Shown piece after piece: positions 2,667-21,345 of a DNA stretch of 21,447 bases. Source of the DNA: a virus; the IMG/VR virus record IMGVR_UViG_3300020420_000411, positions 1 to 21,447 of that record; one strand, given 5' to 3'. The position numbers were made by a program, and so were the translations under genes. The stretch's first letter is position 1. Every line of letters begins with the position of its first letter. Under the pieces are notes generated by a model that made no database searches, had not been told where the DNA came from, and saw only the letters and a list, made by a program, of their open reading frames with translations.

Positions 2667-4305
2667 AAATCAGTATCTAGGTAACCCTAATTTAAAAAAA
2701 GCAAACGTTGCACAGAGTTTTACTCCGTCACAGGTGAAAGAGTTCGTCAAATGTTCTCAGGACCCTGTGTATTTTATTAAGAAGTATATTAGAATCGTCT
2801 CACTAGATAAAGGTCTTATACCATTTGACTTGTATGACTTCCAAGAAGACATGGTAAACAAGTTCAATGATTACAGATTTAATATTGCTAAGTTACCTAG
2901 ACAGTCTGGTAAGTCTACTGTTGTTACATCATATCTGTTATGGTATGTGATCTTTAATGATAATGTTAACGTAGCAATCCTTGCAAACAAGGCAGCGACT
3001 GCTAGGGAAATGCTACAACGTCTACAATTAAGTTATGAAAACCTCCCAAAATGGATGCAACAAGGAATCAACCAGTGGAACAGAGGTTCTTTGGAACTTG
3101 AAAACGGCAGTAAAATCATGGCTGCTTCTACTTCCGCTTCTGCTGTCAGGGGTATGTCTTTTAATATCATATTTCTGGACGAATTCGCGTTCATTCCGAA
3201 TCACATTGCTGACCAGTTTTTCAGTTCTGTGTATCCTACTATATCTTCTGGTAAATCAACAAAAGTTATTATCATATCTACACCACATGGTATGAACATG
3301 TTCTATAAACTCTGGCATGATGCCGAGAGACAGAAGAACGAGTACGTTACCACTGAGGTACACTGGTCACAGGTGCCAGGTAGAGACGCAGTATGGAAAG
3401 AGCAGACCATAGCGAACACATCAGAGGAACAGTTCAGAGTTGAGTTTGAATGTGAGTTTCTAGGATCTGTTGATACTCTTATCTCCGCATCTAAATTGAG
3501 GATGATGGCATATGATGATCCTATACAAAAGAATAAAGGACTAGATGTATATGAGAAACCAGAAAAAGATAAGACATATTGTATAACTGTTGACGTAGCA
3601 AGGGGTGTAACGAAGGATTATAGTGCGTTCTGTGTAATAGACACGACAACAATACCATATAAGGTGGTAGCAAAGTATAGAAATAACACAATTAAACCAC
3701 TGCTATTCCCTAATACCATATACGATGTTGCGTGTGCGTACAACCATGCGTTTGTATTAGTGGAGGTAAATGATATTGGCGGGCAGATTGCGGACATGTT
3801 GCACTTTGACTTGGAGTATGACAATATCCTTATGGCATCTATGCGTGGACGTGCAGGACAGGTAGTAGGACAAGGATTCTCTGGCACTAAGGTACAACTA
3901 GGAGTTAAGATGAGTACGACTGTCAAGAAGACAGGGTGTTCTAATATGAAACAGTTGATAGAAGATGATAAGTTACTGATATCTGACTATGACATCATTG
4001 CAGAACTGACTACATTCATACAGAGAGGTCAGGCATGGGAAGCAGAAGAGGGTTGTAATGATGACCTTGCTATGTGTCTGGTTATGTTCTCATGGTTAGC
4101 AACATCAGATTACTTCCGTGAACTACATGACAATGACGTCAGAATGAGAATGTATCAAGAGCAGAAGGATCAGATAGAAGCAGACATGGCACCTTTTGGA
4201 TTCGTTAGTGACGGATTAGAGCAGGAAACCATCATTGACAATGAGGGTCAAGTATGGCATACTGATGAGTATGGAGATATGTCTTACATGTGGGATTACA
4301 AATGA
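2656..4305 (+). CDS. gp17: terminase large subunit (T4 gp17-like DNA packaging motor)
   Basis: This ATPase-nuclease pumps DNA into the prohead through the portal (gp20, also in this window) and cuts the concatemer. The 549-residue protein has an N-terminal ATPase with Walker A RQSGKST (82-88, K86), Walker B IIFLDE (171-176, E176 catalytic) and a coupling motif STPHG near 209. The C-terminal RNase H-fold nuclease starts around VDVARGVTKDYSAF, with its first metal-binding Asp, and continues to an acidic motif NDDLAM. It is shorter than T4 gp17 (610 residues), mainly at the N-terminus, where the Walker A lies about 80 residues earlier. ATG 2656 overlaps the pcyA end, with GGTGG upstream. No clear small terminase is next to it. 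The stop overlaps the next start as ATGA. Confidence 0.96.
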   Translation: MATENQYLGNPNLKKANVAQSFTPSQVKEFVKCSQDPVYFIKKYIRIVSLDKGLIPFDLYDFQEDMVNKFNDYRFNIAKLPRQSGKSTVVTSYLLWYVIFNDNVNVAILANKAATAREMLQRLQLSYENLPKWMQQGINQWNRGSLELENGSKIMAASTSASAVRGMSFNIIFLDEFAFIPNHIADQFFSSVYPTISSGKSTKVIIISTPHGMNMFYKLWHDAERQKNEYVTTEVHWSQVPGRDAVWKEQTIANTSEEQFRVEFECEFLGSVDTLISASKLRMMAYDDPIQKNKGLDVYEKPEKDKTYCITVDVARGVTKDYSAFCVIDTTTIPYKVVAKYRNNTIKPLLFPNTIYDVACAYNHAFVLVEVNDIGGQIADMLHFDLEYDNILMASMRGRAGQVVGQGFSGTKVQLGVKMSTTVKKTGCSNMKQLIEDDKLLISDYDIIAELTTFIQRGQAWEAEEGCNDDLAMCLVMFSWLATSDYFRELHDNDVRMRMYQEQKDQIEADMAPFGFVSDGLEQETIIDNEGQVWHTDEYGDMSYMWDYK

Positions 4306-4589
4306 TTTCTTTTTTATTCGCTAGTGCTGGTTTACTAAACCTATTGTTCTATGTTTTTGCAATAGGGTTCGTGGTATCTTTGATACTAGAACAGATTGTT
4401 AAAGCAAAACCCTTATCACCTTTTGATGAGATAAATGAGAGAAATCTCTATATAGTACAGACCAACCGTAGATACTGTTGGAGACAAGCATGGGTCACTA
4501 ATCTAATATGGTTTATGGTCAATGTAAGTCTGTTCTTAGTATCTCGTAATATGCAAACACCAACCGATACATTCTGGAACGGAATCTAA
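4302..4589 (+). CDS. small protein with two membrane segments, unknown function
   Basis: ATG 4302 overlaps the terminase stop as ATGA, giving 95 residues. A GTG at 4290 is in frame but adds only four residues. Two hydrophobic segments are visible (about residues 4-29 and 65-81), joined by a polar, basic loop containing NERNLYIVQTNRRYCWRQ. This predicts a hairpin in the inner or thylakoid membrane with the loop on one side. A holin-like role is possible in principle, but nothing in the sequence shows it and no endolysin gene is adjacent. The next ORF starts at the stop codon (TAATG). Confidence 0.7.
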   Translation: MISFLFASAGLLNLLFYVFAIGFVVSLILEQIVKAKPLSPFDEINERNLYIVQTNRRYCWRQAWVTNLIWFMVNVSLFLVSRNMQTPTDTFWNGI

Positions 4590-13498: not shown

Positions 13499-13522
13499 AA
13501 GGACCCTTCGGGGTCCTTTTTT
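13499..13522 (+). terminator. intrinsic terminator after gp23
   Basis: AAGGACCC and GGGTCCTT pair as an 8-base stem closed by a stable TTCG tetraloop (13507-13510). Ts at 13517-13522 follow. This is the clearest terminator in the window and closes the gp18-gp23 structural module. Confidence 0.9.
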
Positions 13523-17626: not shown

Positions 17627-18632
17627 TCAACACTTTGGTGTAAGGAACGATAGTCCTGCATACATTGAGCAGTATCGTAAATTTTATAAGGATACTGTCC
17701 TCCCATACATTGATAAGAACAAGATCACTCACATTGTAAATCTTGGCGACACGTTTGATAAACGAAAGTCTATAAACTATTCGTCCTTAGATGCTGCAAA
17801 GGAGATGTGGTTTGATCCTGTCAGGGATCGTGGTATCCATATGTGGTGCATTGTGGGTAACCATGATATCTACTATAAGAATACTTTAAAGGTCAATAGT
17901 CCTGAGTTATTATTTGAAGACTATGATAACATTACAATAGTTGACGAACCACAGGATATTAATATAGGTGGTTTAGATATTCTAATGTTACCATGGAGGT
18001 GTGAAGCAAATACACACAAGTGGAGAAAGATAATAGAAGATACCAAGAGTACAGTATGTCTAGGACATTTGGAACTCAGTCAGTTTGATCCTATCCCAGG
18101 ATATACTATGGATCATGGTGATGATCCTGCTCCTTTCGAGAAGTTTGATGTAGTATGCTCAGGTCATTACCATCACAGGTCATGTAAGGGTAATATTACA
18201 TACCTTGGTAATCCGTATCAACTATACTGGAATGACTTCGGTACAGAGAGAGGATTCCATACACTAAATACTAAGACAAAGAAACTGACTTTCATAAAGA
18301 ACCCTAATAATATGTTTAACAAGATATATTATAGGGATAGTGAAACTGCTCCTATTGATTATCAGTCTCTAAGTGGTACATATGTAAAGTTGATCGTAGA
18401 AAAGAAAGAAGATCAAAAGATGTTTGATAGTAAACTATCCATGATCTTGCAATCAAATCCTGCCGACTTAAAGATTATAGAAGATACCTTTATGGTATTG
18501 GATGAAATAGACGAGACGATAGAAACAGAGGACACTTTATCCATTCTCAACAAATGTGTTGCAGAGGTCGATCATAAGGATGAAGTCTTTGGTATACTTA
18601 AATCTTTATATGTAGAAGCACAAAGAGTTTAA
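17604..18632 (+). CDS. gp47: recombination nuclease subunit gp47 (Mre11/SbcD-like)
   Basis: gp47 is the phosphodiesterase half of the gp46/gp47 complex. It resects DNA ends to give 3' single strands for UvsX, and also degrades host DNA. ATG 17604 gives 342 residues, matching T4 gp47 (339); an in-frame TTG at 17592 is less likely. The calcineurin-like metal motifs are complete: DQH (8-10), GDTFD (48-52), GNHD (85-88), GH (154-155) and GHYHH (187-191). It lies upstream of gp46 with one small gene between them. Its stop overlaps that small gene as TAATG. Confidence 0.95.
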   Translation: MKLLLITDQHFGVRNDSPAYIEQYRKFYKDTVLPYIDKNKITHIVNLGDTFDKRKSINYSSLDAAKEMWFDPVRDRGIHMWCIVGNHDIYYKNTLKVNSPELLFEDYDNITIVDEPQDINIGGLDILMLPWRCEANTHKWRKIIEDTKSTVCLGHLELSQFDPIPGYTMDHGDDPAPFEKFDVVCSGHYHHRSCKGNITYLGNPYQLYWNDFGTERGFHTLNTKTKKLTFIKNPNNMFNKIYYRDSETAPIDYQSLSGTYVKLIVEKKEDQKMFDSKLSMILQSNPADLKIIEDTFMVLDEIDETIETEDTLSILNKCVAEVDHKDEVFGILKSLYVEAQRV

Positions 18633-18895
18633 TGTTTGTATTAGTTGACAAAGCAAGCGGAGGGGTGTATGCTGTAAAGGATGACACCACAGTAGAACGT
18701 GTTGTTCAACTCTTCCAAGAAGAAGACGATGCTGTTAGATATCACGAGTATCTTATTGCAGCAGATTATGAGAGAGAATTAATAATTACACCATGTGACG
18801 AGCAACAGGTAAAAGATAATTGTGCGTCATTCGGTTATGTATATACGGTAATTAAACCAACTGATATTGTTTATCCCCCAAGTGATTCTGACTAA
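18632..18895 (+). CDS. DUF3110-like protein between gp47 and gp46
   Basis: This 87-residue protein starts in a TAATG overlap with gp47 and ends exactly before the gp46 ATG. The pattern VVQLFQEEDDAVRYHEYLIAAD, followed by a Cys- and Gly-Tyr-containing stretch and ending IVYPPSDSD, resembles the cyanobacterial DUF3110 family as I remember it (a 'FE.EDDA.RYA..LEA.DF' core and a terminal Pro-Pro). That family is small, typical of cyanobacteria, and of unknown function. The likeness suggests a host origin, but it is recalled rather than searched. Its place between two subunits of one complex suggests co-translation and perhaps a modulating role, which is inference. Confidence 0.65.
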   Translation: MFVLVDKASGGVYAVKDDTTVERVVQLFQEEDDAVRYHEYLIAADYERELIITPCDEQQVKDNCASFGYVYTVIKPTDIVYPPSDSD

Positions 18896-20611
18896 ATGAT
18901 TGTTTTTGAAAAGATTAGATGGAAGAATCTGTTGTCCACTGGTCAGCAGTTTACTGAAATCAATCTAAATGATACTGCGTCTACATTAATTGTAGGTAAT
19001 AACGGAGCAGGCAAGAGCACACTTCTTGATGCTCTTTGTTTTGGTCTGTTTGCAAAACCATTTAGAAAGATTAGTAAGACACAATTAATCAATACAGTTA
19101 ATGAAAAGGAATGTGTAGTAGAGATAGAATTTAATATCGGTAGTATTGAATATAAAGTTATCAGAGGTATGAAACCCTCTAAGTTTGAGATCTATCGCAA
19201 CGGAGAACTCTATGATGCAAATGCATCTGTTGCTGATGACCAGAAATACTTAGAACAATCTGTACTTAAACTTAATTTTAAATCATTTACACAGGTAGTC
19301 ATACTGGGTAGCAGTACCTTTGTGCCTTTCATGCAGTTGACAGGACCTAATAGAAGAGAAGTTATAGAAGATATACTAGACATCCAGATCTTCTCTCAGA
19401 TGAATACTCTGTTAAAGGAGAGAGTCAAAGAGATCAAGGACGAGCAGAGATCATGTGAGTATGAAATGGATATTGCACAACAGAAAGTTGAAATGCAAAT
19501 CCGTAATATCGAGAACCTAGAAAAGGTTGATACTACACAGATGGAAAGGAAGCAGAAGAAGTTTGATCTAAATGAAGAACGTTGTATACAAATCAAATCT
19601 AGAATCAAAGAACTAGATAAGAAATGTGATACGTTAGAACCACAGATATTAGAACTAGACAAGGCAGTAGATAAACATGAGAAGTTCAAAGAGATGCGTA
19701 CCAAGATCAAATCTAAATTTGATAACTCTCGTAGAGAAATGAATTTCTTTGAGAACAATCACACATGCCCCACATGTACACAAGAGATTAGTGAACAGTT
19801 TAAAGAAACAAAGATAAAGTATCTTGCAGATAAAGGAACTGAATTAGCAGCAGGGTCTAAACAAATTACTGATGAGATTAAAAAACTTGCGACCACAGTC
19901 AAAGATCTCAGGAAGAAATCAGAAGAGATCAATGGTTATAGGTATGAAATACAGGCATTGACGCATGAGGAAACTAAACTTCTCAAAGAGAATACTGATA
20001 TATTAACTGAGGTTGGTAGTGATACTACAAACTTAGAGTATGAGAGACAGTCATTAGTTACTATCCAAAAGAACTTAGAAGATAAGAAAGATGACTGTGC
20101 CAAAGTCAATACACAAGCAAACTATCTTGGTATTGTGGGTGAGTTATTGAAGGACAGTGGTATAAAAACAAAGATAATTGCTAAGTTTATACCACTAATC
20201 AATGCTAGAATTAATAAATATCTGCACAGCATGGATTTCTTCGTAAACTTCACACTAGATGATAACTTTACTGAGAAGATCCTATCAAGATTTCGTGATG
20301 ACTTTACATATGCCTCATTCTCTGAGGGTGAAAAGCAAAAGATTGACCTAGCACTACTGTTTACATGGAGAGAGGTTGCACAACTTAAAAATAGTGTGGC
20401 AACTAACCTACTCATTCTTGATGAAGTGTTTGACTCATCACTAGATCAATCTGCCACTGATGAACTGATGAAGATATTAAAGAATAAGTTAGACAAAACT
20501 AATTTGTTTGTGATTTCACACAAAGGTGAAGTCCTAATTGACCGCTTTGATAAGACGGTTGAGTTTAAGAAAGATGGCGATTTCTCAAATTTACATTTGA
20601 CAAACGCATAG
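18896..20611 (+). CDS. gp46: recombination nuclease subunit gp46 (Rad50/SbcC-like)
   Basis: gp46 is the ATPase partner of gp47. It binds and bridges DNA ends for recombination-dependent replication. The 571-residue protein (T4: 560) shows Walker A GNNGAGKST (34-42), two long coiled-coil arms (about 170-290 and 295-410), a zinc hook CPTC (291-294), the ABC signature FSEGEKQKI (475-483) and Walker B LLILDEVFD with D509 and E510, then a switch His in VISHKG. All catalytic features are present. ATG 18896 follows the previous stop directly. A consensus sigma70-type promoter is embedded in its last codons and just beyond. Confidence 0.96.
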   Translation: MIVFEKIRWKNLLSTGQQFTEINLNDTASTLIVGNNGAGKSTLLDALCFGLFAKPFRKISKTQLINTVNEKECVVEIEFNIGSIEYKVIRGMKPSKFEIYRNGELYDANASVADDQKYLEQSVLKLNFKSFTQVVILGSSTFVPFMQLTGPNRREVIEDILDIQIFSQMNTLLKERVKEIKDEQRSCEYEMDIAQQKVEMQIRNIENLEKVDTTQMERKQKKFDLNEERCIQIKSRIKELDKKCDTLEPQILELDKAVDKHEKFKEMRTKIKSKFDNSRREMNFFENNHTCPTCTQEISEQFKETKIKYLADKGTELAAGSKQITDEIKKLATTVKDLRKKSEEINGYRYEIQALTHEETKLLKENTDILTEVGSDTTNLEYERQSLVTIQKNLEDKKDDCAKVNTQANYLGIVGELLKDSGIKTKIIAKFIPLINARINKYLHSMDFFVNFTLDDNFTEKILSRFRDDFTYASFSEGEKQKIDLALLFTWREVAQLKNSVATNLLILDEVFDSSLDQSATDELMKILKNKLDKTNLFVISHKGEVLIDRFDKTVEFKKDGDFSNLHLTNA

Positions 20612-20624
20612 TGTCCTGTATAAT
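20597..20624 (+). promoter_or_regulatory. consensus sigma70-type promoter at the end of gp46
   Basis: An exact TTGACA (20597-20602) and an exact TATAAT (20619-20624) are separated by 16 bases. Transcription would start near 20631, giving a leader of about 14 bases before ATG 20645. Both hexamers are perfect, so host RNA polymerase with its primary sigma could read the following genes early, independently of gp55. Confidence 0.75.
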
Positions 20625-20644
20625 GGAGTTAGTATCTAAAATTT

Positions 20645-20854
20645 ATGTTTCTAGCAAGTTGCCCACCAGTCTATACTCTACCTGGGACGTGGAGTAAATG
20701 TAATGCACTCATTCCACATTACAACGCAGACCCTAACGTTACGTTTGGGATAGCATTATTAATATTCACTGTTGGACTAACTGGATTCGGTGTGTATAGA
20801 GCATTCTTTAACAACAAAGATCTAACAGATCAGTGGGACGAACACGATGACTAA
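20645..20854 (+). CDS. single-span membrane protein with paired cysteines, unknown function
   Basis: This 69-residue protein has a polar N-terminal part with two cysteines (C6, C19) and several prolines, one hydrophobic segment (about 33-51, TFGIALLIFTVGLTGFGVY) and a short acidic tail (DQWDEHDD). By the positive-inside rule (R52, K58), the Cys-containing part would be outside the cytoplasm or in the lumen. It is the first gene after the consensus promoter. GGAG at 20625-20628 is too far from the ATG and lies before the likely transcription start, so translation may be from a near-leaderless message. I do not recognise a family. Confidence 0.65.
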   Translation: MFLASCPPVYTLPGTWSKCNALIPHYNADPNVTFGIALLIFTVGLTGFGVYRAFFNNKDLTDQWDEHDD

Positions 20855-20927
20855 TTATGGACTTGAAGTAGTATTCTGGGTCACACTTGGAGTGCTTTTA
20901 ATCTACCAATACGAGAATAGAAAATGA
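20847..20927 (+). CDS. 26-residue single-span membrane micro-protein
   Basis: ATG 20847 overlaps the previous gene by 8 bases, and the stop TGA 20925-20927 overlaps the next start as ATGA (20924). The peptide MTNYGLEVVFWVTLGVLLIYQYENRK has a hydrophobic core (about residues 6-20) and a charged end, like the tiny single-helix subunits of photosynthetic complexes, though I cannot match it to one. Coupling on both sides and a clean membrane helix argue that it is real. Its size makes it easy to miss. Confidence 0.5.
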   Translation: MTNYGLEVVFWVTLGVLLIYQYENRK

Positions 20928-21148
20928 ATGACCTGACCGTGGGGATCTATTTCATACTCTTTGCCATAGTAGCAGGAAGTAGTGCAATGTTCATGTTCAT
21001 GATGATGAGAACCACGATTGAGGCAGTCAATAAACCTGTAAGAAATGTACATCCAGAAATGAAAGACGTACAAACAGGTGATGAGTTACTTGTATTTAAA
21101 CCAGAGGAAGATGATGATGAACCTGACACTGTTGTAGTAAGAAGATAA
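20924..21148 (+). CDS. single-span membrane protein with acidic tail, cyanophage-typical
   Basis: ATG 20924 overlaps the micro-protein stop as ATGA. The 74-residue protein has an N-terminal membrane segment (about 6-28, GIYFILFAIVAGSSAMFMF) and a cytoplasmic tail with VHPEMKDVQTGDELLVFK and an acidic run (EEDDDEPD). I recall very similar small proteins, with the MK-V-TGDELLV-type tail, in many cyanophages, but know no function. The stop overlaps the next start as TAATG. Confidence 0.75.
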   Translation: MNDLTVGIYFILFAIVAGSSAMFMFMMMRTTIEAVNKPVRNVHPEMKDVQTGDELLVFKPEEDDDEPDTVVVRR

Positions 21149-21345
21149 TGTACCATAACAACTTCTTTACTGACGAACAATGGGAATGCATAAGAGTATG
21201 TGTAGCAAATGCACCTATACCTTATGATATTACAAAGAAAAAGATTCCTGCTGAGATCCTAGAAAAGATAGGACAACCACAGAGAAAGGAATACGAAGGA
21301 GAAACATTAGTACACGTTGACTTGGAGCAATATGAAAATACCTAA
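21148..21345 (+). CDS. small soluble protein, unknown function
   Basis: This 65-residue protein starts at ATG 21148 in a TAATG overlap. It has no membrane segment. It contains FFTDEQWECIRVCVANAP, a Lys-rich middle (DITKKKIPAEILEKIG) and a C-terminal LVHVDLEQYEN. It looks like a compact helical domain with a C-terminal strand. I do not recognise it. It overlaps the next ORF by 14 bases and belongs to the same coupled run as the three membrane proteins before it. Confidence 0.7.
   Translation: MYHNNFFTDEQWECIRVCVANAPIPYDITKKKIPAEILEKIGQPQRKEYEGETLVHVDLEQYENT

Follow-up and report, generated by a model that had tools for sequence, protein, structure and literature searches.

A PsbN-like gene and an overlapping 26-residue microprotein in a predicted early cassette of a T4-like cyanophage

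The right end of IMG/VR virus record IMGVR_UViG_3300020420_000411, a 21,447-base piece of a T4-like cyanophage that was analyzed at its full length (hereafter the window), carries a cassette of four small genes downstream of gp46, all on the plus strand. The gene for the gp46 recombination ATPase (18896..20611; SMC_N/AAA_23 Pfam matches, with the gp46 annotation in matching phage records) holds in its 3' end the -35 element of a sigma70-type promoter, TTGACA-16-TATAAT (20597..20624). Behind this promoter lie the genes for a 69-residue protein with a PsbN core (20645..20854), a 26-residue one-helix microprotein that we call p26 (20847..20927), recognized by its conservation, purifying selection and host homologues, a 74-residue one-helix protein with an acidic tail (20924..21148), and a 65-residue soluble protein (21148..21345). 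The start of p26 falls 8 bases inside psbN (overlap 20847-20854), p26 and the 74-mer gene share ATGA (20924-20927), and the 74-mer and 65-mer genes meet in TAATG (around 21148). These overlaps, claimed in an original prediction made from the sequence alone, can be read directly in the sequence, with all coordinates correct. Hydropathy peaks over a 17-residue window were 2.1, 1.8 and 2.2 for the 69-, 26- and 74-mer versus 0.6 for the 65-mer, so the first three are classed as one-helix proteins and the last as soluble; the predicted succession of three single-span proteins and a small soluble one thus agrees with both the open reading frame (ORF) coordinates and the hydropathy profiles.

The first cassette gene is already known. 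Its product is a full-length member of phrog_8051 (residues 1-69 of 69, 134.6 bits), a family whose P-HM1, P-SSM4 and P-HM2 members are labelled T4-GC163, which Sullivan et al. 2010 (PMC3037559) describe as a “possible photosystem II PsbN” belonging to the core genes of the T4-like phages of Prochlorococcus. Residues 30-69 match positions 3-43 of the 43-position PF02468 profile at 31.2 bits, above the gathering cutoff of 25. Because the protein scores 42.7 bits against the 70-bit cutoff of the NCBIfam PsbN equivalog (NF009650), we name it PsbN-core or PsbN-like and not a PsbN orthologue; at 69 residues it also departs from the usual PsbN size of about 43, with few residues before the helix. 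When 24 phage copies were made into a profile, it matched host psbN only at positions 29-69 (50 of 50 matches, 61 Prochlorococcus genomes), so residues 1-28 are taken as phage specific. This block, which bears Cys6 and Cys19 and is followed by one transmembrane helix and the PsbN C-terminus, is the best-conserved part of the phage family, with invariant C6-P, VYTLPGTW, KCN and IPH. Two cysteines were found within the first 32 residues in 63 of 67 parsed phage PsbN sequences, a sample biased to close relatives; among the four without a parsed pair, P-SSM2 and P-SSM7 have neither cysteine, and L009 and L013 were misparsed, their annotated starts being too late.

Having a host homologue and being carried by phages, phage psbN is an auxiliary metabolic gene (AMG), and psbN was found in all 8 of the 8 Prochlorococcus genomes searched. 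Prochlorococcus also encodes a second PsbN-like protein of about 71-95 residues that carries EHARMHELGIAHGH and has a histidine-rich tail (L342-L347 and L360:1321-1536), and the phage copies divide between the two kinds: the window 69-mer comes closest to canonical host PsbN (19/42 identical, shuffle z 19.7), and phage PsbN of the P-SSM2 kind to the second protein (36/71 aligned columns identical, z 26.8). An hli gene lay nearby in 4 of 6 loci of the second paralogue versus 0 of 5 loci of canonical host psbN. In the available part of PMC4823308, few PsbN residues are described as reaching the lumen and the functional C-terminus as stromal, so the phage-only block with its two cysteines would probably be lumenal. 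Tobacco PsbN is required for photosystem II reaction-centre assembly (PMC4823308, PMC4754418).

The second cassette gene, p26, gives every indication of being genuine. Twenty phage homologues (alignment A1) align without internal gaps, with invariant N3, L6, E7, F10, W11 and L14, and define the motif N-x-[GA]-L-E-x-x-F-W-x-x-L in a one-helix peptide; all 20 match phrog_36745, the window copy at E 5.8e-4. The nonsynonymous-to-synonymous ratio (pN/pS), computed from pairwise sums with the first four codons (which hold the psbN overlap) left out, was 0.183 in frame and 0.685 and 1.755 in the two shifted frames. One p26 group had 79 synonymous and 0 nonsynonymous pairwise differences, and the six DNA variants of the P-HM1-type group all specify the same peptide. 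This pattern of substitution indicates that p26 is a real gene under purifying selection and not a chance frame. Conservation of the 26-residue frame in related phages, on which the original prediction had staked its case, is borne out by the invariant residues and the low in-frame ratio. Pfam searches with the 20 members returned weak, unrelated names, neither Pfam nor PHROGs returned an HLI or chlorophyll-binding family, and with no photosystem chain in PDB profile searches either, p26 was rejected as a known photosystem subunit. A literature search found no publication naming p26-like, small hli-linked or phage microprotein peptides, subscription journals being mostly outside its coverage.

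Among phages, p26 frequently accompanies psbN. For environmental psbN we used the best 80 of 171 relatives, of which 70 had at least 600 bases downstream; p26 was immediately next to psbN in 33 of these 70 loci (11 of them counted as behind gp46, and 22 among the 59 loci away from gp46) and within 3 kb in 43. An environmental scan for p26 gave 65 loci, 63 of them new, on contigs that partly repeat the psbN set, and psbN stood in the available flank of 25 of the 63. Among psbN-carrying named phages, p26 was present at E <= 1e-10 in 12 of 14, three of which (P-HM1, P-HM2 and metaG-MbCM1) contributed rows to the p26 model. Joining matches by name, and leaving out nine single-cell fragments, placed p26 in 17 of 20 psbN-carrying named T4-like cyanophages; it was missing from P-SSM2, P-SSM5 and P-RSM6, the last having a doubtful minus-strand partial match (E 0.0017 and 0.9) that was not counted. 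Genome searches did not find p26 in Syn9, S-PM2, S-RSM4 or S-SM2.

Outside the psbN-carrying T4-like named phages, p26 occurs in S-SSM5, for which no psbN match was listed, and in the T7-like phages P-SSP2, P-SSP3, P-GSP1 and P-SSP7. The P-SSP7 copy (PSSP7_053) overlaps the preceding gene by 8 bases and runs through ATGA into talC, the same geometry as in the window. It is annotated in P-TIM40, behind CP12; in P-HM1, MED4-213, P-HM2, P-SSM4, S-SSM4, P-TIM68, P-RSM4, S-SSM7, P-SSM7 and metaG-MbCM1 its coding sequence is unlisted. In five environmental loci (L210, L212, L213, L214 and L216) p26 runs into PTOX, and in P-HM1 pebS is among its neighbours; it also follows genes unrelated to photosynthesis (denV, a cytosine methyltransferase and gp45). 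The window has a PTOX/alternative-oxidase gene of its own (PF01786, 41.8 bits) at its opposite end (687-1193). Matches in Erwinia, Paenibacillus, Vibrio, Aeromonas and Streptomyces had E values near 1-10 and were taken as chance. In six loci of other phages (L106, L119, L128, L141, L142 and L146), members of the 74-mer family are followed by a variant resembling p26 (MNGWYVIFWT...) that has a lysine-rich tail but not the N-x-G-L-E start.

Homologues of p26 were also found in Prochlorococcus, as 33-residue proteins (e.g., MTNLGLEIVFWLILLTYLGARLTQTKKGYKQQY and MTNLGIEILFWTILISYLGLRFSQTWNGFKKQY). The phage-only profile A1 matched 154 of 200 Prochlorococcus genus-group genomes at E <= 0.1 per genome (best 1.8e-8), a threshold at which about 20 chance matches are expected among 200 genomes. 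With host rows added (profile A2), matches were found in 150 of the 200 genus-group genomes at E <= 1e-4, in 24 of 300 genomes of the wider family at E <= 1e-3, and in 12 of 292 genomes of a phylum sample at E <= 1e-4, all of these last being 1.6-1.7 Mb genomes also matched in the family sample. Many of the sampled host genomes are small and probably incomplete single-cell assemblies, so the true host share of p26 may be higher. PHROGs, which are independent of our alignments, likewise tied a host 33-mer to phrog_36745 (E 2.4e-4). A host homologue together with phage carriage indicates that p26, like psbN, is an AMG.

In the hosts, p26 keeps company with hli. HLI ORFs, named via PHROGs (three examples, best E 3.5e-15 to 5.8e-27; the Pfam chlorophyll-binding family was sub-threshold), lay within about 2.5 kb on each side in 21 of 35 host p26 loci, as compared with 1 of 20 control windows shifted by 60 kb, and that one with a weak score; the host genomes are closely related, and these linkage counts are non-independent. 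In a host subtype with a KK-type C-terminus, which was grouped by eye after the data had been seen, all 12 of the 12 loci have HLI at a distance of 172-750 bp. L384 has the second PsbN-like paralogue 614 bp away from p26, and in L400 the distance is about 2.5 kb. One Prochlorococcus genome packs three copies of p26 into about 16 kb, surrounded by HLI (L371, L392 and L393, at about 280-296 kb), which suggests an island of small light-stress membrane genes. According to the available part of PMC5082946, the same set of host hli transcripts rises when Prochlorococcus MED4 is infected by P-HM2 in the light or by P-SSP7; both phages carry p26.

Of 46 promoter-like sites in 20 kb, only the one ahead of the cassette is a 12/12 match, with TTGACA (20597-20602) in the last codons of gp46 and, after a 16-base spacer, TATAAT (20619-20624) in the intergenic stretch. 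The perfect promoter described by the original prediction therefore exists, and it recurs: the two hexamers are found at -47/-48 in every one of the 13 other loci with psbN behind gp46, the spacer being 16 in 12 of the 13 and, in L058, 18 nucleotides of different sequence between intact hexamers, so that the consensus is kept beyond the neighbouring sequence. Such conservation in gp46-linked loci argues that the promoter is real, and that of the -35 element may be due in part to the coding constraint on gp46. Of 91 upstream regions put through a base-shuffle test, 16 reached p <= 0.05, and 14 of these were the window and the 13 gp46-linked loci; upstream of psbN away from gp46 the promoter was not kept, with 2 of 77 regions (L003 and L057) at p <= 0.05, the chance level. 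Late-type octamers (NATAAATA) occur at 162, 2486, 10985, 13926 and 20213, and a scan of the window found none inside the cassette. The proposal of early expression by host polymerase accordingly gains indirect support from the hexamers kept in all 13 loci, L058 included, and from the lack of a late octamer in the cassette; transcription from the promoter in the gp46 end would be early and carried out by host RNA polymerase with its main sigma factor.

The last two genes offer less to interpret. The 74-mer matches phrog_275 (1.9e-12) and belongs to the T4-GC332 family, relatives of which often adjoin gp7 in other phages; the family was found in 70 environmental loci, and p26 lay within 1 kb on either side in 25 of 69 of them. 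The 65-mer matches phrog_37679 (4e-27), and its gene directly follows psbN (e.g., L022 and L083) or p26 in several other loci. Neither protein had a named domain above cutoff in Pfam, PHROGs or NCBIfam, and no ties to photosynthesis were found for either; both are shuffled phage genes that would ride in the same transcript. The cassette order whose conservation the original prediction proposed to check holds behind gp46 and is kept only in part elsewhere, where psbN, p26, the 74-mer and the 65-mer recombine. As a fixed unit in general the cassette was rejected, since away from gp46 the neighbourhoods of psbN vary among named phages and the promoter is lacking. In P-RSM6, for instance, a homologue of a 99-residue membrane protein that the window encodes between its terminase and tail-sheath genes (4290-4589) is placed directly behind psbN (L001:3203-3490) with an 8-base overlap, and the slot behind psbN thus takes different genes. 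Elsewhere in the window, an 87-residue DUF3110 protein (PF11360, phrog_470) is encoded between gp47 and gp46 (18632-18895), and behind the gp23-like capsid gene there is a strong hairpin (13499-13518; 8 pairs, TTCG loop, T run) that resembles an intrinsic terminator.

We lean slightly toward reading the locus as an early auxiliary-metabolic cassette by which T4-like cyanophages aid photosystem II assembly or repair, the protein identities coming from the matches above and the function from what is known of their relatives. Host RNA polymerase would start early at the promoter seen at 20597-20624, and ribosomes could pass from psbN through p26 and the 74-mer to the 65-mer by way of the overlapping stops and starts seen in the sequence, so that the products would be made in step. 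By analogy with the PsbN family, the PsbN-like protein would enter the thylakoid with its C-terminus cytoplasmic and its cysteine-bearing N-terminus lumenal, and would help in building or restoring the reaction centre of photosystem II during D1 turnover. p26 would most likely enter the same membrane and act in the same process, its partner being a PsbN-like protein, an HLI protein or an early photosystem complex, and the last two genes would ride along in the transcript. The assembly stage with PsbN also involves YCF48 and the YCF39-Hlip complex (available part of PMC4823308), and this stage would join the phage psbN-p26 pair with the host p26-hli neighbourhood. Of the role in the thylakoid or a photosystem that the original prediction proposed for the set, the part concerning the 69-mer is supported by its PsbN core, the part concerning p26 is plausible from its pairing with psbN, the host hli genes and PTOX, and nothing was found to extend it to the 74-mer or 65-mer.

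Several observations weigh against this reading. No adjoining p26 was found in 37 of the 70 environmental psbN loci, 38 of the 63 new p26 loci had no psbN in the available flank, and P-SSM2 gave no p26 match despite its psbN-like gene. The 69-mer falls below the equivalog cutoff, PDB profile searches gave no similarity of p26 to a solved photosystem subunit, and the hli linkage carries the two limits given with its counts. In addition, a Synechocystis psbH psbN double mutant was no worse than the psbH mutant, so that PsbN need not matter much in cyanobacteria (available part of PMC4823308). We rate the chances that the PsbN-like protein and p26 assist reaction-centre assembly or repair as about even, the main alternative being a mosaic of small genes that have no function in common.

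That alternative would make the locus a hot spot for very small genes, at which psbN, p26, the 74-mer and the 65-mer were joined by recombination, with a transcript in common and no common process; in this view cyanophages shuffle such genes with their overlapping stops and starts already in place. The varying location of psbN among named phages fits it, as do the several unrelated ORFs that follow psbN with the same start offset, the overlaps of p26 with denV, the cytosine methyltransferase, gp45 and others in other genomes, and the modest share of 74-mer loci (25 of 69) with p26 within 1 kb. We nevertheless consider it rather unlikely, because an adjacency of psbN and p26 in 33 of 70 loci is far above chance for one gene among some 200, and because p26 also adjoins PTOX, CP12, talC and pebS in phages and hli in hosts; a hot spot suits the 74-mer and 65-mer better than p26.

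Two further explanations are considerably less probable. It is improbable that the one-helix proteins serve lysis timing, superinfection exclusion or defence at the cell membrane, and not photosynthesis: a single helix and small size would suit holin-like or exclusion proteins, and the 69-mer has one weak holin-family match (phrog_920, E 0.29), but that match is at chance level whereas the PsbN match is well above the Pfam cutoff, the promoter is of the early type, and the presence of p26 in most Prochlorococcus searched and nowhere else in the phylum sample would be odd for a lysis protein. Least probable of all, and to our minds very doubtful, is that p26 is a shortened relative of PsbI, a small D1 partner encoded beside psbN in Prochlorococcus. 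The host ORF adjoining psbN is presumably PsbI, giving the gene order psbN-psbI, and the pairwise score with PsbI was reached by only 0.2% (host p26) and 1.2% (phage p26) of shuffles, figures that are uncorrected for the many small subunits one could try. Yet PsbI has nothing that corresponds to the conserved E7 and W11 of p26, Pfam and PDB profile searches with p26 returned no PsbI, and the hosts carry both proteins.

The window 69-mer belongs to the T4-GC163 family, yet the available part of PMC3037559 does not mention the overlapping downstream peptide, the phage-only N-terminal block or the two-cysteine pair, and current records (S-SSM4 and S-SSM7) extend the family beyond phages isolated on Prochlorococcus. 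With cyanobacterial and plastid PsbN (PF02468) it shares the single helix and the C-terminus, the host ending DPWDDHDD recurring in several phage copies, whereas the phage form has about 28 extra N-terminal residues and misses the NCBI equivalog cutoff. phrog_36745, a cluster of 27-residue phage proteins, is matched by both p26 and the host 33-mer, but its library entry gives no function, host homologue or link to psbN or hli. Like hli, p26 is a very small gene for a single-helix protein, shared by hosts and by T4-like and T7-like cyanophages, and it adjoins hli in the hosts; unlike hli, it had no match among the HLI and chlorophyll-binding families of Pfam and PHROGs. To judge from the literature search, the new elements here are the overlapping microprotein p26, its occurrence across two phage groups and Prochlorococcus, and its link to hli in the host.

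Annotation skips the conserved p26 in many sequenced cyanophages, and published AMG inventories are therefore incomplete at the smallest sizes. We tentatively suggest, as a possibility somewhat short of even, that p26 and its 33-residue host homologue constitute an unrecognized, lineage-specific component of photosystem II biogenesis or photoprotection, a partner of HLI or PsbN present in most Prochlorococcus of the group and carried repeatedly by T4-like and T7-like phages along with a remodelled PsbN that has a lumenal cysteine pair. The Prochlorococcus protein, being small and apparently single-helix, lends itself to tagging in a model cyanobacterium. Lists have included phage psbN since 2010 with no role assigned, and PsbN itself is without a settled function in cyanobacteria; from a conserved p26 partner that is linked to hli in Prochlorococcus one would predict that two proteins form a module acting where photosystem II is assembled or repaired, which phages would deliver early in infection.

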